64,000 bases of DNA. Origin: Sinomicrobium weinanense (GTDB lineage: Bacteria > Bacteroidota > Bacteroidia > Flavobacteriales > Flavobacteriaceae). The stretch's first letter is position 1. Every line of letters begins with the position of its first letter. The translations under genes and the position numbers were made by a program. The stretch spans positions 1 to 64,000 of the forward strand of contig NZ_JAHKRR010000013.1 of the NCBI RefSeq assembly GCF_018863395.1, in the 5' to 3' direction. A model generated the notes under the pieces. That model searched no databases. It saw nothing but the letters and a program-made list of their open reading frames with translations, and was not told the origin of the DNA. Of this stretch, positions 17,356 through 47,090 are shown one piece after another.

Positions 17356-17431
17356 GAAACCGTTTAAACTTTTTTATCCCTGTAACCCCGGCATCGGCAT
17401 ATTTTCATTAACGAAGTTGATAATCAACCAT

Positions 17432-20400
17432 ATGTTTAGTAAGAACAATTCACAGAGGTTAAAGAAGAAAAAAGTCCTGTTCGGGCTGTTTAAACCGGTT
17501 TTCGTTTTGCAGAAAGCCGTGTGCCTGCTGCTTTTTTGTGTCCTGACCGGTTTTCAGAGCATGGAGGATAATGGCGATATCAGGTTTTCCTATATCACCT
17601 CGGAACAGGGGCTGGACTCGGATGAATGCAATTTTGTTTTTGAGGATTCCGAAGGTTTTTTATGGATAGGTACGAATGGAGGTTTATTCAGATATGACGG
17701 ATATGAATTATTGAATTTTGAGAATATTGTTCGGGATACTAATAATATCATCGGAAAAAGTAAGTATTTGGGAATTGCCGAAGGGAAAGATGATGTACTG
17801 TGGATAGCGTCATCACAAGGTGTTTATTCATATCACAGAAAAACATCTGCTATCGAATTGCTGATAAAAAGCGAAGATATATTTGACGTTACTATATCAG
17901 ATGCGAGGATTGCCATAGCTTATGATCCTGCGGGAAAAGTTTGGTTGGGAGGTACTAAGGGAATCTTTATATATGATTTGGAACGAGAAAAGTTTGAGTA
18001 CTTTAATTCTATAAAAGGACAAAGAGTTCGCGGGGTTAAAGATATAATGGTCAGTTCTTCCGGAGATATTTGGATTGCCACTTGGGGTGATGGCCTGGGA
18101 CGATACGATCCGTCCGGCAACACCTTTGATATTTTTGAGGGTTTTACCAGGGGGCCGGATACAGATCAGCATAATGTGCTAAGTGCATTATATGAAGATG
18201 ATCATGGAGATTTATGGACCGGCACCTGGGGAGATGGTTTATACCGCCTGGATATTACTGCGCCAGATAACCCCCGGATTCTCGATTGGTTTTATATTGA
18301 CGGCCGGGAGGAGAACCCCGGTTTGCCCAGTTACATAATTTATGACATATCCGAGGATATTCGGGGACGTATCTGGGTGGGGACCCCGTTTGGGATAAGC
18401 ATTCTGAAAAAATCTTCTCAAAAAGAAGGATATACAATTCGCAATCACAATTCCAGGGAAGAAAACGAAAAATTAAATAACAATGAAGTAAAAAGCATTA
18501 CGAGGGGGAGCTCAGGGCTTATGTGGCTGTCAACTTATGGAGGAGGTATTAATAAGGTGGATTTGAGGAAAGACAGGTTTCCCTTATTTCATATAGCCAC
18601 GGAAGACCCCATACGAAAGAGTCAGTCCGTCTATGCCTTTACCAGGGATTCCAAAGACAGGCTGTTTCTGGGCATACACAGCTTGGGGTTTGGCATATAT
18701 GATACGGAGACCAATATTTTTACACCTTATACCGATATTCCCGATTACAGGCCATTGGCCGATTTTGATATTAATACGGTAAGAAACTTTACCTGGGACA
18801 AAAAGGGGGATTTGTGGTTAGGTACCAGGTACAAAGGATTAATTAAGTATAATGTAGAGCGTAAAGAATATATAGCTGTGGGCAGGAGCGGAAAAGGATT
18901 GCCTTTGTTTAAAGAGGTCTTTCAGGTAAGGCTGGACCTGAAGAACAATTTGTGGAGCCTGACCAACAAGGGAATTTTTCACGTGGTGCAGAGCGATGAT
19001 TTTAAGAGTTGCGATGTGCAACCTTTTGAACCTGTACAGGCAGATTCCTGCAAGCCCATAGATGCCGGTTTTTCGGATTTTGTAATAGACCGGGGAGGCT
19101 ATTTTTATCTCGCCACAAAAGACGGCAATCTCTGGAAATCTACCGAAAGTATATATGAGGCTGTTCAGGACCTGTACTTCAAAGAGATACGGAGACCCGG
19201 ACAAAAAAATAAATCGATCAATTCCCTTTTTGTCGACAGCAGGCAGAAATTGTGGGTAGGTACCAATAACGGACTGGAGGTTTATGGAAAAAACGGAAAG
19301 CCACATAATACCAATTTGCTCAGTGAGATCAATAACCTGTCTGTTCATTCCATGGAAGAGGATGAACGGGGAAACCTTCTGGTCACTTCCAATAAGGGAG
19401 TGATCTATATAAATATCACCTCGGGAAATCCGGATCATAAGATTTTTACTACCCGGAACGGGCTTCAGGCCAATTTTTTTATCAAGGATGTTATTTATAA
19501 AGACACCGAAGGCGGAATCTACATCGGTGGGCATCGCGGGTTTAATTATATCAACCCCATAGAAATAACAGATGAGCTTAACCTTCCGGCCCTTGTTTTT
19601 ACAAATTTGCAAAACTCAAGTGAAGTATATTTTAATTCGGACGGATTTTCGAAGGAAACGCCTTTTAGAATTCCGTACGATGATAATATTATAAGTATAA
19701 CGTTTGCCTCCCTGGACCTGAGAAACCCGGAAAGCCTTTACTACGCATATAAGTTAGAAGGATTGGAAGAAGAATGGAAATATGTCTCATCCGGCAACAG
19801 AACGGCCACATATGTTAATTTGCCCCCGGGAAATTACACGTTTAAAGTAAAGGGTACAAACAGTAGCGGGCAGTGGTCTCCACAAACCATAGAATTACCG
19901 GTTTATGTACAAACAGCACCCTATTTAACATGGTGGGCGTATACCCTGTATGCCCTTTTGTCCCTCACTTTGTTTACCTTGATTTTCGTGCTCTATATTA
20001 GAAAATCCAGGGCCAAGGAAGCCTTGAAAATAGAAAATATAGAAAGGGTGAAGTCAGAGAGGCTTACACAGTTTAAACTGCAGTTTTTCACCAATTTATC
20101 GCATGAACTCCTAACCCCTTTATCCATTCTGATGGTCCTTGCAGAAAAAACGATGGGGCAAAAGGGAAAGATCACCGAAGAAAAGAAGATCTTTAAACGG
20201 AATATTCAAAAACTCGATGACCATATAAAGCAGATGCTGAATTTCAGAAAAGCTGAAACAGGGAATATGAAAGTACATACCCGAAGGCGGAATATTACTG
20301 AAGTTCTGGAAGAAATCGGGGAGAACCACCAATTGCTGGCCAAAGAAAAGTCATTGATATTCCGTATAGATATCGAGAGTGGTATAACCGGGTATATAGA

Positions 20401-21646
20401 CGCCGAGAAACTGGAAATATGTGTAGACAACCTGTTGTCCAATGCCTTTAAATATACCTCTCCGGGTGACCGGGTTCATTTGGAGACCCATAGTACGGGA
20501 TACAATGGCAACAGGGAACTTGTTATAAAAGTGTCGGATACCGGAAAAGGAATTCCGGAAAAGGACTTAAAGCAGATATTCAATAGATATTACAGGCAAA
20601 CCTCCATAGAGCGAAATGAAGAAGGGTTAGGGATAGGCCTTTCCTTGGTGCAGCATTTGGTGGCTTTGCAAAAAGGAACGATCACCGTGAACAGTAAAGT
20701 GCATTCCGGGGCCTGTTTTGTGATTACGCTACCCGTTAACAAGGATCAATCGGAACGCAACCCGGACCAACAAATAAAAAGACTGATTGACCAGGACCGT
20801 ATAGAGCCCGTCGAAGAAAACCAGCTTGAGGATATTCTTGTAGAGATCGAATATTCAGGTAAGAGAATACTGGTCGTTGAAGATAATAAAGATTATCTTA
20901 AACTTGTAGAAACACACCTTCAGGGTTTTTATAAGGTATTTACTTCTACAAATGGCGAAGAGGCATTCGAAATTGCCAACCGGGAAGATATAGACCTTAT
21001 TGTTTCCGACCTTCGTATACCGGGAATGAATGGTTCTGATTTTTGCCAGGCCGTAAAAAACCATGTCAATACAAGCCATATCCCTTTTATTATTATTACG
21101 GCCAATACCGAAGACCAGGCACGTATACAGGGATACGGATCCGGGGCAGATTCGTACTTTATTAAGCCATTAAGCCTTAATGTGTTGGTCTATAGGATAG
21201 AATCCCTTCTTAAGAAAAAAGAAAAGATATACAATAAATTCAACAAGGGGCAGTATCTGGAACCCGAAAAAATTGTCTCCACAAGGATCGATGAAGATTT
21301 TCTGGAAAAAGCCAAACAAGCCGTAGAAGATCATATGTCTGAAACAGATTTTTCCGTAAAGAAGCTCTGTACCGAGATGGGAATGAGTAATTCCATGTTC
21401 TATCGGAAAATAAAAGGGATCTTAAACTTAACCCCCAATGAGTTTATTAAAAACATCAAGCTGAGACGTGCAGCACAACTACTTGAAGATAAAGAAATAC
21501 ATATCTCGGAAGTGGCATATATGACAGGCTTTAATGATTTGAGCTATTTTGGGGTATGTTTTAAAAAGCAGTATGGTATCTCTCCCAGTGCATATCAAAA
21601 GGACAACGATACAAAAAGTTTAAAATCCGATGAACCCGGAAGATAA
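17432..21646 (+). CDS. HTCS1: hybrid two-component sensor/regulator
   Basis: One-protein signalling system, 1404 aa from ATG 17432, that senses glycan breakdown products in the periplasm and activates PUL transcription. Order: signal/anchor region (to about 45), two seven-bladed-propeller halves of Reg_prop repeats (FEDSEGFLWIGTNGGLFRYDG and many WIGT/WLGT repeats, about 50-740), Y_Y_Y domain (about 760-825), membrane helix (about 832-853), HisKA with His891 (LSHELLTPLS), HATPase (DNLLSNAFKYTSPGD, DTGKGIP, GLGIGLSLVQHLV), receiver with Asp1193 (LIVSDLRIPGMNG), and a C-terminal AraC helix-turn-helix pair (MSNSMFYRKIKGI, ISEVAYMTGFNDLSYF). It lies 76 bp after the CstA gene and is closely related to HTCS2 at 38634-42827. 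Confidence 0.94.
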   Translation: MFSKNNSQRLKKKKVLFGLFKPVFVLQKAVCLLLFCVLTGFQSMEDNGDIRFSYITSEQGLDSDECNFVFEDSEGFLWIGTNGGLFRYDGYELLNFENIVRDTNNIIGKSKYLGIAEGKDDVLWIASSQGVYSYHRKTSAIELLIKSEDIFDVTISDARIAIAYDPAGKVWLGGTKGIFIYDLEREKFEYFNSIKGQRVRGVKDIMVSSSGDIWIATWGDGLGRYDPSGNTFDIFEGFTRGPDTDQHNVLSALYEDDHGDLWTGTWGDGLYRLDITAPDNPRILDWFYIDGREENPGLPSYIIYDISEDIRGRIWVGTPFGISILKKSSQKEGYTIRNHNSREENEKLNNNEVKSITRGSSGLMWLSTYGGGINKVDLRKDRFPLFHIATEDPIRKSQSVYAFTRDSKDRLFLGIHSLGFGIYDTETNIFTPYTDIPDYRPLADFDINTVRNFTWDKKGDLWLGTRYKGLIKYNVERKEYIAVGRSGKGLPLFKEVFQVRLDLKNNLWSLTNKGIFHVVQSDDFKSCDVQPFEPVQADSCKPIDAGFSDFVIDRGGYFYLATKDGNLWKSTESIYEAVQDLYFKEIRRPGQKNKSINSLFVDSRQKLWVGTNNGLEVYGKNGKPHNTNLLSEINNLSVHSMEEDERGNLLVTSNKGVIYINITSGNPDHKIFTTRNGLQANFFIKDVIYKDTEGGIYIGGHRGFNYINPIEITDELNLPALVFTNLQNSSEVYFNSDGFSKETPFRIPYDDNIISITFASLDLRNPESLYYAYKLEGLEEEWKYVSSGNRTATYVNLPPGNYTFKVKGTNSSGQWSPQTIELPVYVQTAPYLTWWAYTLYALLSLTLFTLIFVLYIRKSRAKEALKIENIERVKSERLTQFKLQFFTNLSHELLTPLSILMVLAEKTMGQKGKITEEKKIFKRNIQKLDDHIKQMLNFRKAETGNMKVHTRRRNITEVLEEIGENHQLLAKEKSLIFRIDIESGITGYIDAEKLEICVDNLLSNAFKYTSPGDRVHLETHSTGYNGNRELVIKVSDTGKGIPEKDLKQIFNRYYRQTSIERNEEGLGIGLSLVQHLVALQKGTITVNSKVHSGACFVITLPVNKDQSERNPDQQIKRLIDQDRIEPVEENQLEDILVEIEYSGKRILVVEDNKDYLKLVETHLQGFYKVFTSTNGEEAFEIANREDIDLIVSDLRIPGMNGSDFCQAVKNHVNTSHIPFIIITANTEDQARIQGYGSGADSYFIKPLSLNVLVYRIESLLKKKEKIYNKFNKGQYLEPEKIVSTRIDEDFLEKAKQAVEDHMSETDFSVKKLCTEMGMSNSMFYRKIKGILNLTPNEFIKNIKLRRAAQLLEDKEIHISEVAYMTGFNDLSYFGVCFKKQYGISPSAYQKDNDTKSLKSDEPGR

Positions 21647-21683: not shown

Positions 21684-21870
21684 TAATTATTAATATTTGA
21701 CTGTTTTCTAAGAGTCTTTTCAGAATACGAGAACTTCGTTCAGGATCTCAAAGTTTAAATTTTAGCCGGCTTTTAACTTTTGCAGGACGTATTTGAGACA
21801 TATTCACACTTTTGAATTTAAATCAAGAATATTTGAATGATTTTTCAGGATAGGACCTGGTTCTACAAAT

Positions 21871-21878
21871 TACTTTTG
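21871..21878 (+). promoter_or_regulatory. candidate -7 element of the GH2/sulfatase operon
   Basis: TACTTTTG fits the Bacteroidota -7 consensus TAnnTTTG and lies 57 bp before the GH2 ATG, in the 289-bp gap after HTCS1. No clear -33 element was found. The gap is long enough for a separate promoter. Confidence 0.3.
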
Positions 21879-34688: not shown

Positions 34689-34740
34689 GACACTTATGAA
34701 GACTGCTGACGCTTCACTGGCAGTGACGCTTTTAAGTGTC
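34689..34740 (+). terminator. inverted repeat after sulfatase 2
   Basis: GACACTTA (34689-34696) pairs with TAAGTGTC (34733-34740), enclosing another small palindrome CACTGGCAGTG. It follows the sulfatase 2 stop by 9 bp and is followed by ATTTCAATTTTT. A plausible terminator separating the operon from the next gene. Confidence 0.4.
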
Positions 34741-34784
34741 ATTTCAATTTTTAGTGATTGGTACACTGCGCAAAAATTGATGGT

Positions 34785-34839
34785 AATTGATTGGTTTTTC
34801 ACAATAATTTAAGCGAAATAATATCAAATTCGTGATGTT
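34785..34839 (+). promoter_or_regulatory. PUL regulatory motif copy 1 (upstream of GH-A lipoprotein)
   Basis: The core is AATTGAT-N7-TCACAAT-A-ATT at 34785-34809. Ten bases on comes AATATCAAATTCGTGATGTT (34820-34839). The same layout and orientation relative to transcription are found at copies 2 and 3. It lies 84 bp before the ATG at 34894. It is a candidate binding site for an HTCS AraC domain. Confidence 0.55.
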
Positions 34840-34893
34840 GGTCATGGAATTTTCTTTTTGTTAACCAATCATAAAAACCAATTTCGTTAAATT

Positions 34894-36294
34894 ATGAAAA
34901 CACCTTTTTATTTAACCCCCAGAATCGTCGCGGTAGGAGCTGTTGCGATGATATTCCTTGTTTTTGCATGTGAAGAAAACCTTCGGGACACGGACCCGGG
35001 TGCGGGAGAAATGTCAATAAGTGTCCTTGCATCCGATTCGGAACTCGAAGTATTTCCCGATGTAACCTATCAGTATATGGATATGTATGGCACCGACAAT
35101 AAACTTTGTGTAGGTTCTTATCTGCGGGCCATCAGGAATGGAAACACGGCCTTTAAGGACAGCCTGGTTCAATATCTTTTTACGGATATCCAACACGATG
35201 TGCTCAGGATCCCCATCCGGCAGTGGCTTCATACGGAAGGAGGGACGACCCTCAATACCATGGACAGCATTTATAGTGACCTGGACAGTGTACTAACTTA
35301 TTTGACGGTAGATAAGCCCGGACTGGCCTATTTTGCAAGCCCAGCGGAAACCAGTACGCCCGACGAATATCCCGACTGGTTATTTCGAACCCCCGGTGAT
35401 AAAACGACATTTAAGCACTATGCATACGGCCAGCTTGTCGGGGAATACCTGAACTATCTGCAATCCAAAGGCTATAATATCCAATACCTGGGTCTTTATA
35501 ACGAAGATAGTTTTGTGAAACCTCAACATATCAGGTACTGTAAGAATGGCCTGGAAAGCGTCATCGGTTCGGCGGCCATGGACCAGCTCACATTTGTAGG
35601 CCCGGACCGATGGGGGATCTACTGGATGGTTGATTGGCTGAACAATCATTTCATAGGTTCGGATTATATGGATGAACTCGATGTGATCGGAACGCATTTC
35701 TATGACGATGGAGAAGAGGGAAATGACAATAATACTTCGTCCTGGACCGATTTTGCCACAGCAATGAATTCGGTAAACAAACCCTCCTGGTTCACCGAAT
35801 CGAACAGGTTTAACCTGGGTACGGGGATGGATGGATTAACGGCAGGCCTGGACCATATCTGGGACCCCATTAAAAAAGGTAAGGTGAACGGCGTTATCAG
35901 CTACTGGGGCTCATTATGGATATTAAAACAGAATTTTTCCACCGGGAAACCCATGCGGGATAAGGAATACTACGGATACAAAAAATTTGTCAATACATCG
36001 AAAGGCAAACAGCAGGTAAGGGCGTACGGAGGGCCCAATGTCAGGTTAATGGCCTTCAGGGACGGTTCCCGGCTTGTCATTATGATATTGAATAGATCTA
36101 CCATTGATTTCGAAGGGGTAACGATTAAAATTAATGACGGATACCAGATTGACAGAAGCCTTACCAGGACCAGGTGGACTCCGGGCTCGGCGGTTGAAGG
36201 TGATACCACTACGTGGACGCCCCCGGATTCCACCACGCTCACCCAGCCGGTTCCGGCAAAGTCGTTCATCGTCTTTACGATGGATATTATATGA
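34894..36294 (+). CDS. clan GH-A glycoside hydrolase lipoprotein, GH30-like, unclassified
   Basis: Exported lipoprotein (lipobox VFAC, Cys26), 466 aa. The fold is read as a TIM barrel plus a small C-terminal beta domain. DVLRIPIRQWLH is an early strand, LAYFASPAETSTPDEYP a substrate-loop region, and YLGLYNEDSF carries a likely acid/base Glu204 after a strand-4-type motif. SWFTESNRFNLG contains the likely nucleophile Glu302. The tail VRLMAFRDGSRLVIMILNRS is a GH30-type beta-sandwich. The sequence is too divergent for me to name the GH family. It stands alone behind the shared regulatory motif, separated from sulfatase 2 by a hairpin, and converges with the GH59-like gene. Confidence 0.7.
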   Translation: MKTPFYLTPRIVAVGAVAMIFLVFACEENLRDTDPGAGEMSISVLASDSELEVFPDVTYQYMDMYGTDNKLCVGSYLRAIRNGNTAFKDSLVQYLFTDIQHDVLRIPIRQWLHTEGGTTLNTMDSIYSDLDSVLTYLTVDKPGLAYFASPAETSTPDEYPDWLFRTPGDKTTFKHYAYGQLVGEYLNYLQSKGYNIQYLGLYNEDSFVKPQHIRYCKNGLESVIGSAAMDQLTFVGPDRWGIYWMVDWLNNHFIGSDYMDELDVIGTHFYDDGEEGNDNNTSSWTDFATAMNSVNKPSWFTESNRFNLGTGMDGLTAGLDHIWDPIKKGKVNGVISYWGSLWILKQNFSTGKPMRDKEYYGYKKFVNTSKGKQQVRAYGGPNVRLMAFRDGSRLVIMILNRSTIDFEGVTIKINDGYQIDRSLTRTRWTPGSAVEGDTTTWTPPDSTTLTQPVPAKSFIVFTMDII

Positions 36295-36357
36295 TGTTTT
36301 TATCTTTCGGATAAATCTTTGAAAAACGATTGTTAAACAGGACCCTAAATTTAAGGA

Positions 36358-36430
36358 GGTGTCTAAAAAGTGGATCACACGTCAACCTGACTTGTTTCGG
36401 AATGACGATTTACAAAACTTTTTAGACACC
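36358..36430. repeat. 14-nt inverted repeat between convergent genes
   Basis: GGTGTCTAAAAAGT (36358-36371) and ACTTTTTAGACACC (36417-36430) are exact reverse complements, 45 bp apart. They lie between the stops of the GH-A lipoprotein (plus) and the GH59-like gene (minus). It may be a bidirectional terminator or a small MITE-like relic resembling the repeat before susC2. Confidence 0.5.
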
Positions 36431-36476
36431 CTTCTAAGCTTTAATGCCCTGATTTTTTTGGGATATTCCCGGAACC

Positions 36477-38567
36477 CTATGGCCGCCTGGAAATAGGAGT
36501 AACATGCAGGTTATCGAAACGGGCATTTGACCATTTATCGGAAGCAGAAAAAGGATCTTTACATCCCAGTCCCAGTGTCCCCAAGGCTACATTACCGTTT
36601 TTATAGGCCTCATCAACGACCTCAGCTACTTTTTTATTTCTTATGAACACCTTGATCACGGGCCCGTTAAATTCCAGCCCGACAGTGATCCACTGATTGA
36701 GACTGGCTCCCGGTACAACACCCGATGATAAGGTAACAAATGTTCCCGTGTCTTTTCTGTTGTCCGGGTTTTCGGGAGGGTCTTTTCGGATCAACTCCCA
36801 TTTTCCCCGGTTATCAAGAGAAAGCCAGTAACCTTCGAGCAGAAAGTCCCCGCTGTTTTCCTTTTTACCGTCGAACCTTCCGCTTAAAAGAACTTTCCCC
36901 GGATTTTCCATTAAAACATCGGCCCGGACCTTATAGTCTGTCCATTCGATATTTCCCATTTCGGTGAGCGGCTGTTTTAAAGGCCTGTTGTGCCACATGC
37001 GTGGGGCTTCGGTAACGACCTGTCGCAGTGCGTTGCCTTTTCGGTTTTTGCCGGGACCTGCAATGGTGAATATGCCGTTGGCATCGATAAAATACCGGGC
37101 CATATCGTCTTTTTCGTAAGATTCGAACGTTTCGGTATAGGGGAACGGAAATTCTTCAGCCGGGGGAATTACCGTTGTTCCCCTATGTTGCCCTTTCGTT
37201 GTAGACAGGGTATAAACACAGCCCTTATCCAGGTGAACTATTATCTTTTTCTTTGCGGGAGGCAAGGACCTTACCTGTCTAAACCATTCCGATGGTTTCA
37301 TGAAATCGGAACGCCACAGATATGCGGGGCCTTTTGAAAGGTCGTCGGACAAATTGATCTCCAGGTCGATCCCCGCTTCCGGGAAATTATGGTCGTGCGT
37401 ATTGATAACAATAGTATAATCATCACCCGTATTATCCTTAAATGCAATAAACCGCCCGGCTTTGGTCCCGTTATGGTTATACACATTGGTCTTACCGGTA
37501 TTTAGAATATTCCAGCCGGGTTCTGTAAACTGGGTAAAATGAGAGAAAGCCCACAGGTTTGAGCCTGTTTCATAATGCCCGCTCCAGGGTTCATCAGCTT
37601 TTATAAAGCCGTTATTGGCCCAGGGCATGTTGTCGTATACCGAAGCAGTAGCAGACCAGCGGATAATACCGTTCATTTTTACATCCAGTAACAGCCGTAT
37701 GATCTGATTTACCCAGTCATAGCCGCTTTTTATATTCCGATAGCTTCCGCCCCCGTCTTCACTGGACCATAAGGGTTTCCCCAGTTTGTAGGCGATATCG
37801 GGCATAAAGCTTGCAGGCCGGTTTTTGTAATGTACACCGATAATATCTACGGCTTCGGCATAAAGAGAATCTTTCTGTATTTCGTCAAATACCCGGTATT
37901 TCCTGACTTTCGCCCCTTCGTCGGCAGTGACAATTTTAACCTTGTCATAACCGTTGGCATTCAGCAGTTGTCTTAATTTTATGGTCAGGGCCCTGTTGAT
38001 AAACGGTTTGCCTTCCTTGTACTGTTCGTTCTGGTTTCCGCCGATATAATCGATACGAAGGCCGTACTTTTCTTTTGCCCCCTGTACAAAACCGAAAATA
38101 TATCCGGCTTTCTGGTCATCGGTCCTTGCCCAGGCGGGATAGCCCCAATGCAGAGCCGAAAGCCGGATATCCGGGTTTCTTTTTTTGGCTTCGTTCATGA
38201 GCCACCAGACGTAGCCCCTCTCGAAATCCGGGGTTTCCCCGAGGGTTCTTTTATAACTCGGCCAGGAAACGGCCGTATTGTTCCCGTCATAACCTATTTC
38301 AACCTTGAGCACTTGCAGGGATGCCCCGTAACCGGGTAAAAAAAGATAATCGAGAATTTCTTTTCGCTGTGGTTCGGGGTAGTCGTATAACAGTTTCTCA
38401 TAGCTGGGTATGGCGCCCAATCCTTCAAAGGTGTTCAGGATGGCGGTCCCGTCTATGTCAATGGCCTGGGAGGCAGGCAAATTCCTGTTTTTCTCAGCGT
38501 TTCCAAAAGATAAAAGGCTTATGGCCATAAGGAATAGCGCAGCCTTTATGGTTGTGTTTTTTTTCAT
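36477..38567 (-). CDS. GH59-like galactocerebrosidase-type beta-galactosidase
   Basis: Exported 696-aa protein (signal ending near SFGNA) with the layout of GH59 galactocerebrosidases. A TIM barrel starts NTFEGLGAIPSYEKLLYDYPE (family-like) and KRNPDIRLSALHWGYPAWA. The acid/base is Glu181 in YIGGNQNEQY, and the nucleophile Glu270 in PLWSSEDGGG corresponds to the LWSSED-type motif of human GALC. A beta-sandwich (about 390-450) and a C-terminal lectin-like domain (about 490-690, ending WSNARFDNLHV) follow. GH59 is retaining and acts on beta-galactosides. Bacterial members are few. It is the last gene of the sulfatase 3-HTCS2-GH59 run, with regulatory motif copy 2 47 bp upstream. Confidence 0.85.
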   Translation of the reverse strand: MKKNTTIKAALFLMAISLLSFGNAEKNRNLPASQAIDIDGTAILNTFEGLGAIPSYEKLLYDYPEPQRKEILDYLFLPGYGASLQVLKVEIGYDGNNTAVSWPSYKRTLGETPDFERGYVWWLMNEAKKRNPDIRLSALHWGYPAWARTDDQKAGYIFGFVQGAKEKYGLRIDYIGGNQNEQYKEGKPFINRALTIKLRQLLNANGYDKVKIVTADEGAKVRKYRVFDEIQKDSLYAEAVDIIGVHYKNRPASFMPDIAYKLGKPLWSSEDGGGSYRNIKSGYDWVNQIIRLLLDVKMNGIIRWSATASVYDNMPWANNGFIKADEPWSGHYETGSNLWAFSHFTQFTEPGWNILNTGKTNVYNHNGTKAGRFIAFKDNTGDDYTIVINTHDHNFPEAGIDLEINLSDDLSKGPAYLWRSDFMKPSEWFRQVRSLPPAKKKIIVHLDKGCVYTLSTTKGQHRGTTVIPPAEEFPFPYTETFESYEKDDMARYFIDANGIFTIAGPGKNRKGNALRQVVTEAPRMWHNRPLKQPLTEMGNIEWTDYKVRADVLMENPGKVLLSGRFDGKKENSGDFLLEGYWLSLDNRGKWELIRKDPPENPDNRKDTGTFVTLSSGVVPGASLNQWITVGLEFNGPVIKVFIRNKKVAEVVDEAYKNGNVALGTLGLGCKDPFSASDKWSNARFDNLHVTPISRRP

Positions 38568-38584
38568 GATATCAAATTAGAGTT

Positions 38585-38639
38585 AACATCACGAATGTTG
38601 CATCATTTCAGGAAAATGATTGTGAGATAATGATCAATT
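38585..38639 (-). promoter_or_regulatory. PUL regulatory motif copy 2 (upstream of GH59-like gene)
   Basis: On the minus strand AATTGAT-N7-TCACAAT-C-ATT occupies 38639-38615. Ten bases on comes GATGCAACATTCGTGATGTT (38604-38585), identical to copy 1 in the last 12 bases and with the same spacing. It overlaps the HTCS2 stop codon and ends 18 bp before the GH59 ATG. Confidence 0.55.
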
Positions 38640-41600
38640 GTCATTAAATTTTTCCCATTCGTCATTTTCCCGGATGCTTTGCTGTATGGAAGAAGACGCC
38701 TGCTTCTGTTCCCGGTACGTTTTTTTCCGGTATGCACTGGGGGAAGCACCGTATTGCTTTTTAAAGCATGCGCTGAAATAGCTCAGATCATTAAAACCGA
38801 TCATATAGGCTACTTCCGAAATATGAATATTGTTGTCGGCCAGTAATTGTGCCGCGCGTCGCAGGCGGATATTCTTGATAAATTCGTTGGGAGTGAGGTC
38901 GAGAATACCTTTTATTTTTCTGTAGAACATGGAATTGCTCATTCCCAGGTCCCTGCAAAGTACCTTTACTGAAAAATCCGATTCGGACATCCGGTTTTCC
39001 ACAGATTTTTTGGCTTTGGTCAGAAATTCTTCATCAATACTGGTCGATACGATTTTTTCCGGTTCGAGGAACTGGCCCCTGTTGAACTTATGGTATACAT
39101 TTTCGCGTTTTTTCAGGAGCGACTCGATGCGATAGACCAGGACATCCAGGCTTATGGGCTTGGAGAAATAGGTGTCCACACCCGCTTCATACCCTTTTTT
39201 TCTTTCCTCGTCATCGGCATGGGCCGTAACGATTACCACAGGGATATGGCTGGTATTGACATCGTTTTTAACGGCCCTGCACAATTCATGCCCGTTCATA
39301 TCGGGGATGCGCAGATCAGAAACGATAAGGTCTATTTCTTCCCGGTTTGCAAGCTGAAGGGCACTCTTTCCGTCAAGGCAGCTAAATACCTTGTAATAAT
39401 TCCGGAGATAGGACTGTACGAGTTCCAGGTAATCTTCATTGTCTTCGACAAGGAGTATGGTTTTTCCCGAGTATTCCACATCTTCGGGCTTATGGGAGGT
39501 TTTATGATCTTCGGGCAGCCTGATGTTTTTTTCGGTGATCAGGGGCCCGGATTGTCTCCTGTTTTTCAATCCCGATATATCCTTGCCTATCGGTACGGTA
39601 ATTTTAAAACGGGTCCCCACTCCCGTTTCGCTTTCTACCCCGATAGTCCCCTGCTGAATTTTCACAAGATGATGGGTCAGTGCAAGCCCTATGCCCAGGC
39701 CGTCTTCACAACCCTGCACGGATTTTGGGCGATAATAACGGTCGAATATCCTTTCGAGATCATCCCGGGGAATGCCTTTTCCCGTGTCTGCTACCGAGAT
39801 GATCAGGCCCTGCTTACCGTTATAACCCTGGGTGTGTAATTCGAATATTACGGAACCCTGTACCGGGGTATATTTAAACGCATTGGAAAGCAGGTTGTTC
39901 ATACAGATCTTTATCTTCTCAAGGTCGATATAGCCCGTCAGGTCATGTTGTACCTTCACCTTAAAGTCAATCCCTTTTTCTTCGGCCAGGACTTCGTAGT
40001 CTTTTTTGAGGTCATATACGATCCCAGAAATATCCTGCCATGAAATATTCAGCTCCATATTGCCGGTTTCGGCTTTCCTGAAATTGAGCATCTGTTTAAT
40101 ACGGTCATTGAGGATTTTGATATTGCGTTTTAGTATTTTATCCTTTTCCCGGGCATCTTTATTCCCGTTGAGGTTCTTGTCCGAGAGGATGGTCAATACG
40201 GACAGGGGAGTGAGCAGCTCATGCGAAAGATTGGTAAAGAACTGTAGTTTGAACCGGTGCAGTTTTTCCGATTTTACCCTCTCGATATTTTCGACCCTCA
40301 GGGCCTCCCGTATCCTGATCTTTCTTCGGTAGAGAACAAAAATGGCGGCAATGACGCCCACTGCGGCCAGCGTATACAGGGTGTAAGCCCACCAGGAAAA
40401 GTAGGGAGCGGTTTCTACCACAAGGGGAAGTGATATGGTATTTTCCGACCATTGGCCGTTGGCATTGGTAGCTTTTAACTGAAACGTATAATTGCCGGGC
40501 TTGAGGTTTACATAGGTTGCGGTCCTGTTATTGGAGGTAACGTATATCCATTTGTTCTCAAGCCCTTCTAGTTTATAGGCATAGTTCAAATTGTCCGGAT
40601 CTCTCATATCTATGGAAGAAAAAGACAATGTTATGATGTTGTCATTGTAATGGAGGACAAACGGGTTTTCGGCATTAAATGCACGATCGCTGTAATAGTT
40701 CTTACGGGAGGTGCGCAGATTGGTAAATACCAGGGAAGGCTGTATATGATCGTCCTTGATGTTCAATGGGTTTATGTGATTGAACCCCTGATGTCCGCCA
40801 GCAAATAAAGTACCGTCCTTGTCTTTGAAGATGGACCCTTTGATAAAATAATTTGCTTGTAGCCCGTTGCGCATGGTATATAAGCCGATTTGGGTATCAT
40901 CAGTCAGCATGTTTATATAGATCAGGCCCTTATTGGAAGTCGCGATAATATTTCCCTTTTCATCTTCTTCGAAGGCGTGCAGGGATAGGTTTTTTATTCC
41001 CGACAGCATACCGGATTCTATGGGTTCCCCATCTTCGGTATAGGTTTCAAGCCCATTATTCGTTCCTACCCACAACCTGTTTTTTCCATCGATGAACAAG
41101 GTGTTCAGGCTTTTGTTGTTCTTCCCGGGGCGTGGTATTTTCCTGAAAAAATAGCGATCGGCGGTATCCGAATAAATACTGGTTTCCGATTTCCAGATAT
41201 CCCCGCTGTGTGTGGCGATATACAGGTACCCGTTCTTACTGATGTTAAAATCGGAATATGCATTTTCTATGACTGCGGAATCCTTTGATATCCGGGGGGA
41301 AAATGGTTTGACGGAATTATCACCGAAACGATCTCCCTGTTCTACATAAAAAAAACCTCTCTTGGTAAGGATCCATATCCTGTCATTGAGGTCCGGGACT
41401 GTGCGGAGTACTTCCTTGAATATCCTGTTGTTGTTTTTTCTCCTGGATACATGGGCGTAATTCTTACGGGAAGGGCTGTATTTAATAAGTCCTTTGAATC
41501 TTGTTCCCAGCCATAGATTCCCTTTTTTGTCCCAGGTAAAATTTCTTATCGTATTGAGCTCGAGATCGTATAACGGTTTGTAATCGTCTATATGCTCAAA

Positions 41601-42827
41601 GGGTGTCAGGGTCTTGTTGTTCATGTCATATACCCCGAAGCCCAGGCTTTGTACCCCTAACAGCAACCTCTTCTTATGATCTCTGGTAAAGGCATAGACG
41701 GATTGACTTTTCCTGTTGTCGGATAGGGATATGTGATATAGTGGAAATTTATTTCGCCTGAGATCAAATTTATTGACCCCACCTCCAAACGTCGCCAGCC
41801 ACATAGGGCCGGACCTGTCCTGAATAATACCCCTGACTTCATGGCTTCTCCATTTTGTGGTATGATCTGCATATTTAAAATGAAGGAATTCGAATTCCCG
41901 GTCCTTTACGGTTTTGATGATGCCGGGGCCAAAGGGTGTCCCTACCCATATGTTGCCGTAAATATCTTCATTGATATCATAGATAATGTTGCTCGGAAGC
42001 CCTTCTTCCTTGCCGGTTGCTTCTCCGAACCATTCCAGGATCTCGGGAGATCCGGGGTCTGAAATATCCATAACATACAACCCCCCGTCCCAGGTACCTA
42101 CCCATAATCTTCCCTTGCGGTCCTGGTAGAGGGCATTCAAAACATTGTCTTTTTGCCGGAAAGGCCCGGACGTAAATTTATCAACAACCTCAAACGTCCC
42201 TTTTTCGGGAAGATACCTTCCCAGCCCGTCTTTCCAGGTGGCCAGCCATACATCCCCGGAAGAACTGATGAGTACATCCCTTAATCCCCTGGTATGATCC
42301 TTGTTTTTAATGGTACTGTAGTGCGTTATTTTTTGTGTCTGAAGGTCATAGAAAAAAATTCCTTTGCTCCCGCCAAACCAGACTTTTCCGGAAGGATCAT
42401 ATTCTATGGTCACCCGATCTCCGGGACTGGTACTGTTATAGACCTGGGGGCCTTTTTTGATCAGTCGGATGGAAGCTTTCTTTTTATCATAGGAAAATAT
42501 GCCTGCCGAAGATGCCACCCAGAGTTTTTGGTCCTCACTCTCGGTCATTTCAAAATATTGTGCCTTTCCCGGTATTTTTTTGCTGTCCCGGACCAGCGTT
42601 TCAAAATTCAGGACCTCATAACCGTCATAGCGGAAGAGGCCCCCGTTTGTTCCTATCCATATAAAACCGTCACTGTCCTGGAAGACAAAATTACTTTCAT
42701 CGGAGTCCAGTCCGTCTTCCGATGTTATTCGCGAAGAAAGAATATCTTCCCGGTCTACGCTTTGGAAACTGCAAAGCATGGCACCCATGAAAAGAAGTAA
42801 TAAATATCTGGAATAACCGAACAGCAT
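38634..42827 (-). CDS. HTCS2: hybrid two-component sensor/regulator
   Basis: Closely related to HTCS1 over its full length, e.g. ITSEDGLDSDESNFVFQDSD against ITSEQGLDSDECNFVFEDSE. About 1397 aa from ATG 42827; an earlier ATG (42908) overlaps the sulfatase gene. Reg_prop propellers (about 40-730), Y_Y_Y domain, membrane helix near 815, HisKA with His869 (LSHELLTPLS), HATPase with GLGIGLALTHHLV, receiver with Asp1171 (LIVSDLRIPDMNG), and AraC helix-turn-helix (MSNSMFYRKIKGI) at the end. It lies 14 bp after the sulfatase 3 gene and 67 bp before the GH59-like gene, so it is in their operon. It probably regulates these and other operons in the window. Confidence 0.94.
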   Translation of the reverse strand: MLFGYSRYLLLLFMGAMLCSFQSVDREDILSSRITSEDGLDSDESNFVFQDSDGFIWIGTNGGLFRYDGYEVLNFETLVRDSKKIPGKAQYFEMTESEDQKLWVASSAGIFSYDKKKASIRLIKKGPQVYNSTSPGDRVTIEYDPSGKVWFGGSKGIFFYDLQTQKITHYSTIKNKDHTRGLRDVLISSSGDVWLATWKDGLGRYLPEKGTFEVVDKFTSGPFRQKDNVLNALYQDRKGRLWVGTWDGGLYVMDISDPGSPEILEWFGEATGKEEGLPSNIIYDINEDIYGNIWVGTPFGPGIIKTVKDREFEFLHFKYADHTTKWRSHEVRGIIQDRSGPMWLATFGGGVNKFDLRRNKFPLYHISLSDNRKSQSVYAFTRDHKKRLLLGVQSLGFGVYDMNNKTLTPFEHIDDYKPLYDLELNTIRNFTWDKKGNLWLGTRFKGLIKYSPSRKNYAHVSRRKNNNRIFKEVLRTVPDLNDRIWILTKRGFFYVEQGDRFGDNSVKPFSPRISKDSAVIENAYSDFNISKNGYLYIATHSGDIWKSETSIYSDTADRYFFRKIPRPGKNNKSLNTLFIDGKNRLWVGTNNGLETYTEDGEPIESGMLSGIKNLSLHAFEEDEKGNIIATSNKGLIYINMLTDDTQIGLYTMRNGLQANYFIKGSIFKDKDGTLFAGGHQGFNHINPLNIKDDHIQPSLVFTNLRTSRKNYYSDRAFNAENPFVLHYNDNIITLSFSSIDMRDPDNLNYAYKLEGLENKWIYVTSNNRTATYVNLKPGNYTFQLKATNANGQWSENTISLPLVVETAPYFSWWAYTLYTLAAVGVIAAIFVLYRRKIRIREALRVENIERVKSEKLHRFKLQFFTNLSHELLTPLSVLTILSDKNLNGNKDAREKDKILKRNIKILNDRIKQMLNFRKAETGNMELNISWQDISGIVYDLKKDYEVLAEEKGIDFKVKVQHDLTGYIDLEKIKICMNNLLSNAFKYTPVQGSVIFELHTQGYNGKQGLIISVADTGKGIPRDDLERIFDRYYRPKSVQGCEDGLGIGLALTHHLVKIQQGTIGVESETGVGTRFKITVPIGKDISGLKNRRQSGPLITEKNIRLPEDHKTSHKPEDVEYSGKTILLVEDNEDYLELVQSYLRNYYKVFSCLDGKSALQLANREEIDLIVSDLRIPDMNGHELCRAVKNDVNTSHIPVVIVTAHADDEERKKGYEAGVDTYFSKPISLDVLVYRIESLLKKRENVYHKFNRGQFLEPEKIVSTSIDEEFLTKAKKSVENRMSESDFSVKVLCRDLGMSNSMFYRKIKGILDLTPNEFIKNIRLRRAAQLLADNNIHISEVAYMIGFNDLSYFSACFKKQYGASPSAYRKKTYREQKQASSSIQQSIRENDEWEKFNDN

Positions 42828-42841
42828 ATTAATACGAAAGT

Positions 42842-44932
42842 CTATTGCGGATAGTGATAAAATGCCGACGGGGGAACCGCAGATCCTTCCCGGTCTGCGT
42901 ACTTCCACATCAGTTGCAGGTTCTTGCCAGTTACCGGTTGATCTCCCATAACATATAATTTGATGGGGTGATATCCTTTGGAGAGGCTGACCTCATATTC
43001 CCGGTCCCTGTCTTTGTTAAAGTCCCCGTCTATGACCGAAATATCATGAAGCCTCATAAAACACTTTTTATCCGTGTTTACAGAGAACCTGTACTTTCCA
43101 TCCTCGGGAATTTTGATGTAACCTTCGAGGCATACCAGGTTTCCTTCGAATTGTGCTTCACCGGGATTATCGATCCGGGCCACGGCCACAGGGTTTTCAG
43201 GGGCGGACGGAATCCATGGCAGATCATTGCGAAAAGATTTTGCCATGAGCCCGTTGACAAGGGATTTACCGGGGGCCGCCGGAACCAGAGCATTGTCATA
43301 GGTCCGCGGGGCAGAAGCATCGGTATGCCGCATTTGGATCACCCTGGCCTTCATCAGGTCCTGGAGGTCGGTATGCTGGCCGGCAAGGTCGTTTTGCTGG
43401 GCCGGATCGTCCACCACATTGTAAATATTAAAATCGTCTGCGGCCGAAGTAATGTTATACCGTACCCCGGCCATATCGCCAATTCTTATCATTTGCATCT
43501 GTTTTCGCCTGGTGTTTTGATGGTTTTCCCCGAATTCGGCATAAGAAGGCGTTGTCCCGGGATGGAAATATTCGACATAGATCCTGCTTTCTTCCTGTTT
43601 TCCTTTCCCGGTCAGGGAGGGGAGCAGGGAAATGCCATCTGTCCTTACCGGGGCTGTTGTTCCTGCGGCGGCTGCAAATGTGGGCATCCAGTCATAGGAA
43701 ATGCTGGGACTGTTTACCACGCTTCCCGCGGGGATGGTCCCCGGCCAGAAGGCAATGGTCGACGTGCGCAGACCCCCTTCGTAAGTATCTCTTTTAATGC
43801 CGTCAAAATACCCGAAATTGTTAAAGAATTCCGGACTGTATTCCACGTACTCGTCTTTGGAAAGATAAGATTCTTTGGAAGGGCCGTTATCGGATGTAAA
43901 TATCACGAGGGTGTTTTGGTCTATCTCCAGGTCCTTCAACAATTGTATGAGGTCCCCGACCTGGTCATCGATCCGCCTGTTTACCGTTGCATAGCGCTTG
44001 TAGGTATCGGGCCAGGGGACTTCCGGGGTATCGGGGTTTTTATCATCGTCCCAGGTGGCATTTTCATATTCCGGATATACATAGGAATCTACCTCACCGG
44101 AAGCCGTATTAATCATTTCTCCCGGTTTCCCCTGCCACTGTAACCCTCCGTTCAGTCCACGGCCTTCCGGGTAGGCCTGGGTGGGTAATTCGAGCACGGC
44201 ATGCGGGGTGTCATAAGACAGGTACATAAAAAAGGGCTTGTTCTTATGATTTTCCCGGTGCTCGGTGATATACTTTTTTGCCCGGGCGGTGAAAAGATCG
44301 CCCGTGTAGCATTTATCAAGGCTTTCACTGACTTCCTTATAATTTTCATAAACTTCCTTGGGCCCCCGGTATGTCCCTTCTTTCGGATAGTGCTCATGTC
44401 CGTCCCTGTGCCTGATATAACCGTAATAGGCATCGAACCCCCGTTTTAAAGGGTGTGAAGGCCAGTCCGGTCCGTCGCCTTTTCCCTGTAATCCCCATTT
44501 GCCGATGGCTACGGTACGGTAACCGGCCTGTTTTAGTACGTTGGCCATGGTGTAATTATCTTCCAGGGCTTTGTCGAACTGGTTGTCGCGTACGTTGGAA
44601 TGCCCCTGGTTGACACCCAGGAGTATCGAAGCCCTGGAGGGCGCACAGACAGGGGCTGCCGTATAATGCTGTGTGAGTTGCGCACCTTCTTCTGCCATGG
44701 CATCGAGGTAAGGTGTTTCGAGCCAGGGTTCACTTCGGTCGCCCTTTTCTTTTCTTTGGTTCTGGAAGAATATGCCGATATCCCCGTAACCGAGGTCATC
44801 CGTGAGAATGAATATGATATTGGGCTTTACGGGCTCGGCCTCTGCCGCTTTTTCTTTTTGTTCATTCTTGCAGGAAGAAAGACAAACGGTACTGAAAAAA
44901 GATAGGAATAGAAATGATTTGATCCTGTTCAT
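42842..44932 (-). CDS. sulfatase 3 (S1) with C-terminal PA14-like domain
   Basis: Exported lipoprotein sulfatase (Cys21 in CLSSC), 696 aa, longer than the usual 450-550. Motifs: PNIIFILTDDLGYGDIGIFF, formylglycine motif C-A-P-S-R with Cys96, TVAIGKWGLQGKGDGP, YDTPHAVLELP, and VIFTSDNGPSKE. After the catalytic fold, residues about 575-695 form a beta-sandwich with PA14-like features (GYIKIPEDGKYRFSVNTDKK, then IKLYVMGDQPVTGKNLQLMW), likely carbohydrate binding. The gene starts the minus-strand run followed by HTCS2 and GH59. It follows the GH5-like gene by 300 bp. Confidence 0.9.
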   Translation of the reverse strand: MNRIKSFLFLSFFSTVCLSSCKNEQKEKAAEAEPVKPNIIFILTDDLGYGDIGIFFQNQRKEKGDRSEPWLETPYLDAMAEEGAQLTQHYTAAPVCAPSRASILLGVNQGHSNVRDNQFDKALEDNYTMANVLKQAGYRTVAIGKWGLQGKGDGPDWPSHPLKRGFDAYYGYIRHRDGHEHYPKEGTYRGPKEVYENYKEVSESLDKCYTGDLFTARAKKYITEHRENHKNKPFFMYLSYDTPHAVLELPTQAYPEGRGLNGGLQWQGKPGEMINTASGEVDSYVYPEYENATWDDDKNPDTPEVPWPDTYKRYATVNRRIDDQVGDLIQLLKDLEIDQNTLVIFTSDNGPSKESYLSKDEYVEYSPEFFNNFGYFDGIKRDTYEGGLRTSTIAFWPGTIPAGSVVNSPSISYDWMPTFAAAAGTTAPVRTDGISLLPSLTGKGKQEESRIYVEYFHPGTTPSYAEFGENHQNTRRKQMQMIRIGDMAGVRYNITSAADDFNIYNVVDDPAQQNDLAGQHTDLQDLMKARVIQMRHTDASAPRTYDNALVPAAPGKSLVNGLMAKSFRNDLPWIPSAPENPVAVARIDNPGEAQFEGNLVCLEGYIKIPEDGKYRFSVNTDKKCFMRLHDISVIDGDFNKDRDREYEVSLSKGYHPIKLYVMGDQPVTGKNLQLMWKYADREGSAVPPSAFYHYPQ

Positions 44933-45232
44933 GTAATATTAGTATAAGTGAAACCCGCCGGGATCTCCGGTTTGTTAATCAATAATCGCGCTGTTCCCGG
45001 TGTTGAAACCTGCAATATATCCACATTTTGCCGGGGCCGATAAAATGGCACCAATAAAAGGGATATCATCGGGCGGGTAAATATCAAAAAATAAACACAT
45101 TTAAAATATAAATCTTTAATCAAAGATTATGAGAAATTGAACCTGTTTAAACGAGTTATTGTTAAAAATACATATTTAAAGGGCTTTTTGTGCTGATAAG
45201 GTACTAAAAATGTATTATGGTATGGAATTATT
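44933..45232. other. 300-bp gap between GH5-like and sulfatase 3 genes
   Basis: Contains the promoter or leader of the sulfatase 3 operon presumably, but no recognisable element; the shared regulatory motif is not clearly present. No gene seen. Confidence 0.3.
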
Positions 45233-46483
45233 TTAGAAGGATAAAAAATAATCCCTGATAATTTCTCCCGTACCACGGCCTGCCCAGGTTGAGCATTGAT
45301 TTCCTAAAACAGTAGGTTCTATGGGGTCTGTTCTGAAATCTCTGATCGTTGTAAAGGGGACATCGAGTGCATAGGCCATCATCCCGATATTTTTGGAGTC
45401 GATATAGTTCAGAAATTCTATAGGCTTATTTAACCCGAATTCATCACACCATCCATGTGCCAGTGGTGCTCCCCATGCCGTAATTAAAAATGGGTATTGT
45501 TCGGCCATGAATCCGAAATTTCCATCCCAGTCTATCCTTTCCGGATCTGAGCCATCCCCGAAAAATGGATGGACAGAGTAGACGATCTTGTCCAGAGGAT
45601 CTACAAAACCACCGGGAAATCCTTTAAAAGATGTTTTCAAACCCTGCACTATAATTAAATTTTTAGCCCCTTTGTCACGCATGGCCTGGATTATGGTATT
45701 GACCCCGACAAATTCTACACCCGGACAACAACCGGCACTTGGAGTACCACCATCCCTGTAGAACTCCCAGCCAAAATCCCGCCGGGTAGGTGACCAGGGT
45801 TCGTTTAGTGTTTCCAACATAATATAGGGATCATCCCCGAAAAGTTCCGCGAGTTTTACACAAGCTCCAAGGGATATCGGATTATTTATGGGAATATTCG
45901 GATTTTCATCTTGCATGGGCTGAGGTATATTTTTATTGGCAGCAACAAAAATGGTTAAAATAACAACGAAATCTTTATTCCTGGCAGCACTGACAGCTCT
46001 CCGGACCAATTGTACATAATTCTCGGAATAATATTGATTCTGAGGGTCAAGAGCTCCCTGGTTTAAGTTTAGCCTGATGGTATTGGCTCCCCATGCCCGG
46101 GCCAGGTCCAGACCGGAATTGTCTGTAAAATCACCTTTGCCGAAGTAATAATCCTGTGCTGCCAACTGCCTGGTACAAAATTCCTCATATTCCGGATACT
46201 GGGCATATTCGATCAGATTTTCTTTTTTATAAAGTAAAGATTCAAATACATAGCCCCTCGGATAAAAAGGAGCTCCGTCGAGTAGTATTTCTTTACCATT
46301 CAGACTTAAACCTATGTTGTACTGGTAAGTATCAGATGAGATGTTCTCGTTCTCAAGAGGAGGGACCTCGTCTGTTTTACAGCCTGCCAGGACAATACAT
46401 AAAATCAGGGACAATAATAATGTCCATGTGCCTGTTGGAATACGTTTTGGAAGCTTGCTCAGGGTTTGTACACTTGTTTTCAT
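45233..46483 (-). CDS. GH5-like lipoprotein with Ala at the nucleophile position
   Basis: Exported lipoprotein (lipobox VLAGC, Cys35), 416 aa, TIM barrel of the GH5 type. Seen: DLARAWGANTIRLNLNQGAL (strand 2-3 region), VVILTIFVAANKN, the acid/base Glu228 in ETLNEPW, KNLIIVQG, and IVYSVHPFFGDG with the usual Tyr and His. The strand-7 motif, normally P-V-x-x-x-E-W/F-G, reads PFLITAWGAP, so the nucleophile Glu is replaced by Ala336 (codon GCA, one base from GAA). The C-terminal MMAYALDVPF segment corresponds to the strand-8 tryptophan region. It might be a binding pseudoenzyme, or use a different mechanism. Regulatory motif copy 3 lies 130 bp upstream of its ATG. Confidence 0.8.
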   Translation of the reverse strand: MKTSVQTLSKLPKRIPTGTWTLLLSLILCIVLAGCKTDEVPPLENENISSDTYQYNIGLSLNGKEILLDGAPFYPRGYVFESLLYKKENLIEYAQYPEYEEFCTRQLAAQDYYFGKGDFTDNSGLDLARAWGANTIRLNLNQGALDPQNQYYSENYVQLVRRAVSAARNKDFVVILTIFVAANKNIPQPMQDENPNIPINNPISLGACVKLAELFGDDPYIMLETLNEPWSPTRRDFGWEFYRDGGTPSAGCCPGVEFVGVNTIIQAMRDKGAKNLIIVQGLKTSFKGFPGGFVDPLDKIVYSVHPFFGDGSDPERIDWDGNFGFMAEQYPFLITAWGAPLAHGWCDEFGLNKPIEFLNYIDSKNIGMMAYALDVPFTTIRDFRTDPIEPTVLGNQCSTWAGRGTGEIIRDYFLSF

Positions 46484-46591
46484 AATTATTGGTTTTGGGT
46501 GTTATAAAATTGGTTTGAGATCTGATTTCCTGACAGGGGTTAGGTGTCATTCGTCAAATGGATTATTTTCAACGACTTGCTTTAGCGGTGT

Positions 46592-46638
46592 GAATATGAT
46601 ATTTTTTAAAGGGAATTATTGTGAAGTAATAATCAATT
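46592..46638 (-). promoter_or_regulatory. PUL regulatory motif copy 3 (upstream of GH5-like gene)
   Basis: On the minus strand AATTGAT-N7-TCACAAT-A-ATT spans 46638-46614. Ten bases on comes AATATCATATTC, matching copy 1 at 11 of 12 positions. It lies 130 bp before the GH5 ATG and could also serve susC2 in the other direction. Confidence 0.5.
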
Positions 46639-47063: not shown

Positions 47064-47090
47064 AAATAACAACCATTCAATTCATTGATA

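Follow-up and report, generated by a model that had tools for sequence, protein, structure and literature searches.

Which sensor controls which genes in a polysaccharide utilisation region that carries several of them? The question is raised by positions 1 to 64,000 of contig NZ_JAHKRR010000013.1 of Sinomicrobium weinanense (Flavobacteriaceae; assembly GCF_018863395.1), the stretch of DNA analysed here and called the window. It is a large polysaccharide utilisation region with three SusC/SusD-type pairs, five sulfatases, two GH2 genes and GH59 and GH5 genes, together with the hybrid two-component sensors (HTCSs) HTCS1 and HTCS2 and part of a third. Families were assigned by Pfam, except for the SusC-type gene at 47085, which was judged by its similarity to other SusC genes. 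HTCS proteins form a large family of glycan sensors. An earlier reading of the window, made from its sequence only, had noticed a 25-bp element upstream of three genes and had proposed that HTCS1 or HTCS2 may bind it and coordinate only enzymes of clan GH-A. The sites are most likely operators of a regulator, for which an HTCS is the best candidate, and we consider it likely that each is an activator-dependent promoter controlled by HTCS2.

The element and its association with HTCS2

The element, here block 1, was found exactly and on the expected strands at all three places. Site 1 (34785–34809, plus strand) lies upstream of the gene at 34894–36294 (plus strand; gene 34894), site 2 (38615–38639, minus strand) upstream of the GH59 gene (36477–38567, minus strand) and site 3 (46614–46638, minus strand) upstream of the GH5 gene (45233–46483, minus strand); each is a proposed operator half-site, of a type that we link to HTCS2. 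The HTCS2 stop codon (TGA at 38636–38634) falls within site 2. As the sequence-only reading had described, a second block (block 2) follows in every copy after a gap of 10 bases, with ATTCGTGATGTT common to copies 1 and 2 and AATATCAwATTC common to copies 1 and 3. The gap bases and flanks have diverged among the copies; the blocks have not.

When up to three mismatches were allowed, exactly these three matches and nothing else were found in the window, whilst 100 shuffled windows gave a mean of 0.24 matches and at most two, never three. The whole genome (5,357,131 bases) held 25 places at the same threshold (three with no mismatch, none with one, three with two and 19 with three), compared with 12 for a reversed control pattern, and the chance expectation for exact copies was about 0.001 per genome by a Markov estimate from the composition of the window. 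Genome-wide scatter, which the sequence-only reading had named as telling against it, was looked for and did not occur, copies with no or one mismatch being the three sites only. All three lie less than 4 kb from the HTCS2 gene (38634–42908, minus strand), the proposed regulator, which combines a propeller sensor, a histidine kinase, a receiver and an AraC-type DNA-binding domain in one protein.

The association with HTCS2 recurs in a second species. Six Sinomicrobium genomes, including that of S. weinanense, made up the genus sample. Sinomicrobium sp. N-1-3-6 (NZ_QLNV01000014.1; Flavobacteriaceae) possesses orthologues of HTCS2 (79 %) and of HTCS1 (69 % to HTCS1), which are on different contigs. 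Two further copies of the motif, both with the same 10-base gap and second block, were found on its HTCS2 contig, less than 2 kb from the HTCS2 gene. One (L039:15119) spans the last HTCS2 codons and the stop codon, as site 2 does in the window, so that the motif is kept at the orthologous place and a lack of such conservation, the second outcome that the sequence-only reading had named as refuting, did not occur; the other (L039:16852) is upstream of the next gene and scored 34.8 with a matrix built without it, whilst eight simulated windows reached at most 9.0. All five perfect sites of the two genomes are thus less than 4 kb from an HTCS2 gene. Both of the genus genomes with HTCS2 carry the motif, and the four others have neither an HTCS2 orthologue (best matches 28–35 % identical) nor a copy with no or one mismatch. 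Two matches to block 1 alone in the relative, scoring 13.2 at L038:12341 (between its GH59 and a SusC-like gene) and 12.4 on L041, had no block 2 and were taken as chance.

Beyond the genus, a long pattern of 47 bases covering both blocks was searched at up to two mismatches in 397 family genomes. It was perfect at five places only, the five sites, in two of the 397 genomes; four other genomes, of other genera, held it with one mismatch, and 69 with up to two. The looser matches are mostly chance, since a reversed control matched about 55 of the 397 genomes at up to two mismatches. A search for HTCS2 in 395 class genomes (E ≤ 1e-200) returned only the genome of S. weinanense and one 33 % match, one for HTCS1 in 397 family genomes (E ≤ 1e-180) only the two genus members and one 31 % match, and a contig scan for HTCS2 only Sinomicrobium sp. 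N-1-3-6 and an unrelated 27 % match, all of these scans being draws or pattern-limited, so that other carriers may exist.

The target genes are of several kinds. GH59 and GH5 both belong to clan GH-A, and the first gene had been read as a GH-A enzyme too, but searches of Pfam (up to E 5), NCBIfam and PDB sequences matched nothing to its product, which showed only a partial relation to one protein of genome G602 (54 of 206 columns identical), itself without an assigned family. In Sinomicrobium sp. N-1-3-6 the sites precede the paralogues lecA and lecB (529 and 533 aa), whose only domain recognised by Pfam is of the ricin-type lectin kind; their homologue in the window (61412–63004) has no site. 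The relative's GH59 orthologue (76 %) is on another contig, whose 34,343 bases hold no full site, and the operator therefore goes with HTCS2 rather than with GH59. A restriction to GH-A enzymes is not supported: nothing found ties the operator to that clan, with fold models of gene 34894 and lecA that are too poor to exclude a barrel (mean predicted local distance difference test (pLDDT) scores of 37.0 and 45.4, respectively) and homologue hunts outside the genus for the two products that yielded weak relatives only, of which the one examined lacks a catalytic family assignment. A further lectin-domain homologue (58 %) with a ricin-type repeat array lies outside the window, at G000:C5:75607-77448 (L127, L129), beside another HTCS gene.

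At the HTCS2 stop codon the two species can be compared directly. The linker before the last HTCS2 codons has changed and ENDxWEKFNDN-stop has been kept, and past the end of HTCS2 the similarity of the DNA can still be recognised as far as the start codon, which belongs to a different gene in each species; this suggests, from this one two-species comparison, that the operator was preserved while the gene behind it was exchanged. A tentative extension, possible rather than probable, is that the operator-promoter behind the HTCS gene serves as a docking place: effector genes (GH59 in one species, a lectin-domain protein in the other, with divergence beginning near the start codon) could be swapped under an unchanged sensor, and the last HTCS2 codons (WEKFNDN-stop) would be kept because they are also operator DNA.

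Three side observations concern this part of the window. The listed GTG start of HTCS2 (42842–42908) overlaps a sulfatase gene; an ATG 27 codons further in is the likelier start, and the matching frames of Sinomicrobium sp. N-1-3-6 do not overlap. Upstream of the sulfatase and HTCS2 genes, a long stretch at 44933–45232 without an operator is conserved with Sinomicrobium sp. N-1-3-6 and is possibly a promoter or leader of its own. A terminator-like hairpin at 34722–34743, which follows the sulfatase gene (end at 34679) and precedes the first operator, could insulate gene 34894 from the preceding genes, in a scan that yields many hairpins by chance (21 observed, 14.9 in shuffles).

HTCS1 and a proposed sister operator upstream of GH2

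HTCS1 (17417–21646, plus strand) is a paralogue of HTCS2. The sequence-only reading saw no copy of the element before the GH2 operon; comparison with the second genome, and only that, brought out a related, divergent operator there, TTTGAATGATTTTTCAG at 21831–21851 (plus strand). When eight orthologous promoter sets were aligned, such a block was seen only at GH2, the first gene after HTCS1, in sets where several gene starts of the relative were placed at open-frame ends and that for susC3 was shortened; the loci as a whole were covered by the matrix scan. In the GH2 promoters of both species TTTGAATGATTTTTCAG, a few flanking bases and a promoter box, TACTTTTG in the window (21871–21878, plus strand) and TATTTTTG in Sinomicrobium sp. 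N-1-3-6, were conserved. With the HTCS1-linked and HTCS2 sites aligned on TTTTTCA, 131 of 210 letter pairs matched; over 61 shifts this was the highest count, the mean being 63 and the runner-up 108. In the HTCS1-linked sites TTTTGAAT recurs 21 bp upstream, and 21 was the best upstream self-match of shifts 10–35 (25/42); the direct repeat would make 21810–21830 (plus strand) the upstream and 21831–21851 the downstream half-site. We propose that the conserved operator before the GH2 gene belongs to HTCS1.

The two regulators are alike in the region that would read these sites. Their DNA-binding domains are 83 % identical, compared with 55 % for the whole proteins, and similar regulators here go with similar motifs (131/210 in register). 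The stretch GMSNSMFYRKIKGIL, which we take to hold the first recognition helix, is identical in both. HTCS1 and HTCS2 also both possess the SHIP residues, which in most HTCSs go with phosphorylation-controlled DNA binding according to the accessible part of one study (PMC11253607).

That the sites look like HTCS operators agrees with the earlier suggestion, which left the choice between HTCS1 and HTCS2 undecided; the evidence favours HTCS2, because in the relative the two regulators are encoded on separate contigs, and its HTCS1 region, as far as examined (C39:320001-353913; L104, L105), contained no HTCS2-type copy, only the TTCAG type. Either HTCS could nevertheless bind, since the DNA-binding domains are 83 % identical. 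A joint regulon, in which each of the four window sites is bound by HTCS1 as well as HTCS2, would be compatible with control by HTCS2, and the shared GMSNSMFYRKIKGIL speaks for it, as does a precedent of same-locus paralogues with one motif, proposed for BT4111/BT4124 in the part of PMC3878776 that is available. Against it, TTCAC is present at all five HTCS2-linked sites and TTCAG at both HTCS1-linked promoters, also in the relative with its loci on separate contigs, in a small sample in which the two HTCS1-linked promoters are orthologous. On balance we regard a joint regulon as somewhat unlikely.

Directly before HTCS1, a gene at 15904–17355 encodes a carbon starvation protein like CstA (Pfam CstA, 191 bits), an order kept in Sinomicrobium sp. 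N-1-3-6 (78 % identical) and odd company for a glycan sensor. A 673-aa protein (13836–15857) without a Pfam match is represented near the HTCS1 gene of that species by a tandem pair of homologues (64 and 56 %).

Block 2 and the proposed promoter

The core of block 2 was compared with the flavobacterial −7 box, described as TAnnTTTG at −12 to −5 with a median 5′ untranslated region (UTR) of 24 bp in the accessible part of PMC9723704. The proposed boxes are CAAATTCG at site 1 (34825–34832, plus strand; four of six positions, predicted transcription start near 34837), AACATTCG at site 2 (38592–38599, minus strand; four of six) and CATATTCA at site 3 (46591–46598, minus strand; three of six); over the five HTCS2 sites CAAATTCG occurs three times and the other two once each. 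Both HTCS1-linked promoters have a perfect TAnnTTTG, six of six positions each, at offset 41 (12/12, next best 9). At the five HTCS2 sites the same offset was the best of 212 (19/30 matches; mean 8.6, standard deviation 3.3), and 12 of 840 permuted boxes, the true box included, matched as well there. The HTCS2 sites and the HTCS1-linked promoters thus have this register in common. With block 2 as the −7 box, transcription would start at position 53, with predicted 5′ UTRs of 57 nt for gene 34894, 20 nt for GH59, 103 nt for GH5 and 20 and 65 nt in Sinomicrobium sp. N-1-3-6. We hold block 2 more likely to be a weak −7 promoter box than a further operator.

The explanation that we hold to be likely makes HTCS2 the activator on which the promoter at each site depends. 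Block 1 (TTGAW-N7-TCACAAT) would be the promoter-proximal half-site for one HTCS2 AraC-type domain, at about −52 to −32 and over the −33 region, and block 2 a weak −7 box at −12 to −5, in which cAnnTTCG stands for TAnnTTTG. Positions from about −52 to −32 are commonly occupied by activators that contact the polymerase. HTCS2 would sense a glycan fragment, become phosphorylated, bind block 1 and recruit RNA polymerase, turning on the downstream gene, and HTCS1 would act likewise at the sister operator (TTCAG) before the GH2 gene. The non-consensus box would make the promoter weak and dependent on its activator. The inducing substrate may be a galactan, a guess based on GH59 and GH2. A second, weaker half-site may sit 21 bp upstream of block 1, which is only a guess because shift 21 (44/105 matches) ranked fourth among shifts 10–35 at the HTCS2 sites.

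That ranking is one of several points that weigh against the proposed promoter or the operators in it. The upstream half of the HTCS2 sites matched that of HTCS1 at 86 of 210 letter pairs in register, outside the best four shifts. The −7 box agrees with consensus at only three or four of six positions at each of the five sites, runner-up offsets were close (18/30 at −2 and 17/30 at −12), and better single-site boxes (five of six) occur elsewhere, at offset 69 for gene 34894, 77 for GH5 and 92 for lecB. Compared letter by letter over the block 2 region, the two operator types matched as well at shift −20 as in register (70 of 170). The GH2 operator alone scored 0.4 in the matrix scan, within the null (−0.3 to 9.0); that scan alone would miss the site, and its recognition as an operator rests on conservation and register. 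Finally, the system was found in only two genomes, which keeps the number of independent sites low: those of GH59 and lecA are orthologous, and lecA and lecB form a tandem pair.

Some of the same figures bear on the reading in which both blocks, TTCACAAT and TTCGTGAT, are operator half-sites at a distance of 31 bp (three helical turns), with the promoter box further downstream. A shift of 31 was the best downstream self-match of block 1 (48/105), the conservation of block 2 exceeds the eight bases of a −7 box, TTCGTGA is present in three of the five sites, and the five-of-six matches at offsets 69, 77 and 92 could supply the box at three sites. Those downstream boxes, however, are not at one common distance, and at the GH59 and lecA sites the start codon follows block 2 after only 17 nt, which leaves little room for a promoter. 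The HTCS1-linked promoters, moreover, have their perfect TAnnTTTG exactly at block 2, and the average spacing of known HTCS repeats is 21 bp (PMC3878776, accessible part). We judge this arrangement unlikely. Two other interpretations of block 2 were rejected, an inverted copy of TCACAAT (ATTCGTGA), true in three of the five sites only, and a promoter for an extracytoplasmic function (ECF) sigma factor with a CGT −10 box, CGT being present in three of the five sites and about 26–30 bases from block 1, far longer than is usual for ECF promoters.

An RNA leader element, or the binding site of an unlinked regulator, is very improbable: the motif at the two sites behind HTCS2 could fall within a read-through transcript, but its occurrence tracks the HTCS2 locus and a conserved RNA hairpin was rejected, as there was no consensus structure (−0.06 kcal/mol, three pairs, none changed on both sides). 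It is equally improbable that the copies arose by recent duplication of a single promoter and have no regulatory role, which would explain the fixed, gapless block spacing but not why gaps and flanks have diverged when the blocks have not, why the downstream genes are of different families or why the blocks are conserved between species.

Comparison with known systems

No report of this operator, nor of Sinomicrobium in connection with polysaccharide utilisation, was found in the literature searched, which covered few subscription papers. An HTCS operator is an already known kind of element; within that literature, the pair of sister operators and the overlap with a stop codon are new. If the assignments proposed here are right, two paralogues with 83 % identical DNA-binding domains each have their own operator, the plainest difference being at one conserved position (TTCAC or TTCAG). 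Such paired variants make the recognition code of the HTCS family testable, and transcription starts are predicted for four window genes, near 34837, 38587, 46586 and 21883.

The closest known elements are the HTCS motifs of Bacteroides thetaiotaomicron, direct repeats on average 21 bp apart that were predicted by comparative genomics for 16 of its 36 HTCSs, as the available text of PMC3878776 reports. Like these, the operators proposed here are next to HTCS genes in polysaccharide loci, related regulators go with related motifs and, at the HTCS1-linked site, direct repeats about 21 bp apart are clear. Unlike them, they occur in Flavobacteriaceae, only the promoter-proximal half is strong at the HTCS2 sites and one operator overlaps the stop codon of its putative regulator. 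The BT4111/BT4124 pair (HTCS_Rgu-1) is likewise formed by two close HTCS relatives that share a gene cluster; a single motif for both was proposed in the accessible part of the same study, whereas two distinguishable variants, each tied to one paralogue, are found here. Compared with flavobacterial sigma-A promoters, as far as the portions available of PMC9723704 and PMC7366714 describe them, the HTCS1-linked boxes match fully and the predicted 5′ UTR lengths are ordinary, whereas the boxes of the HTCS2 sites are off consensus, with C at the seventh position in all five.

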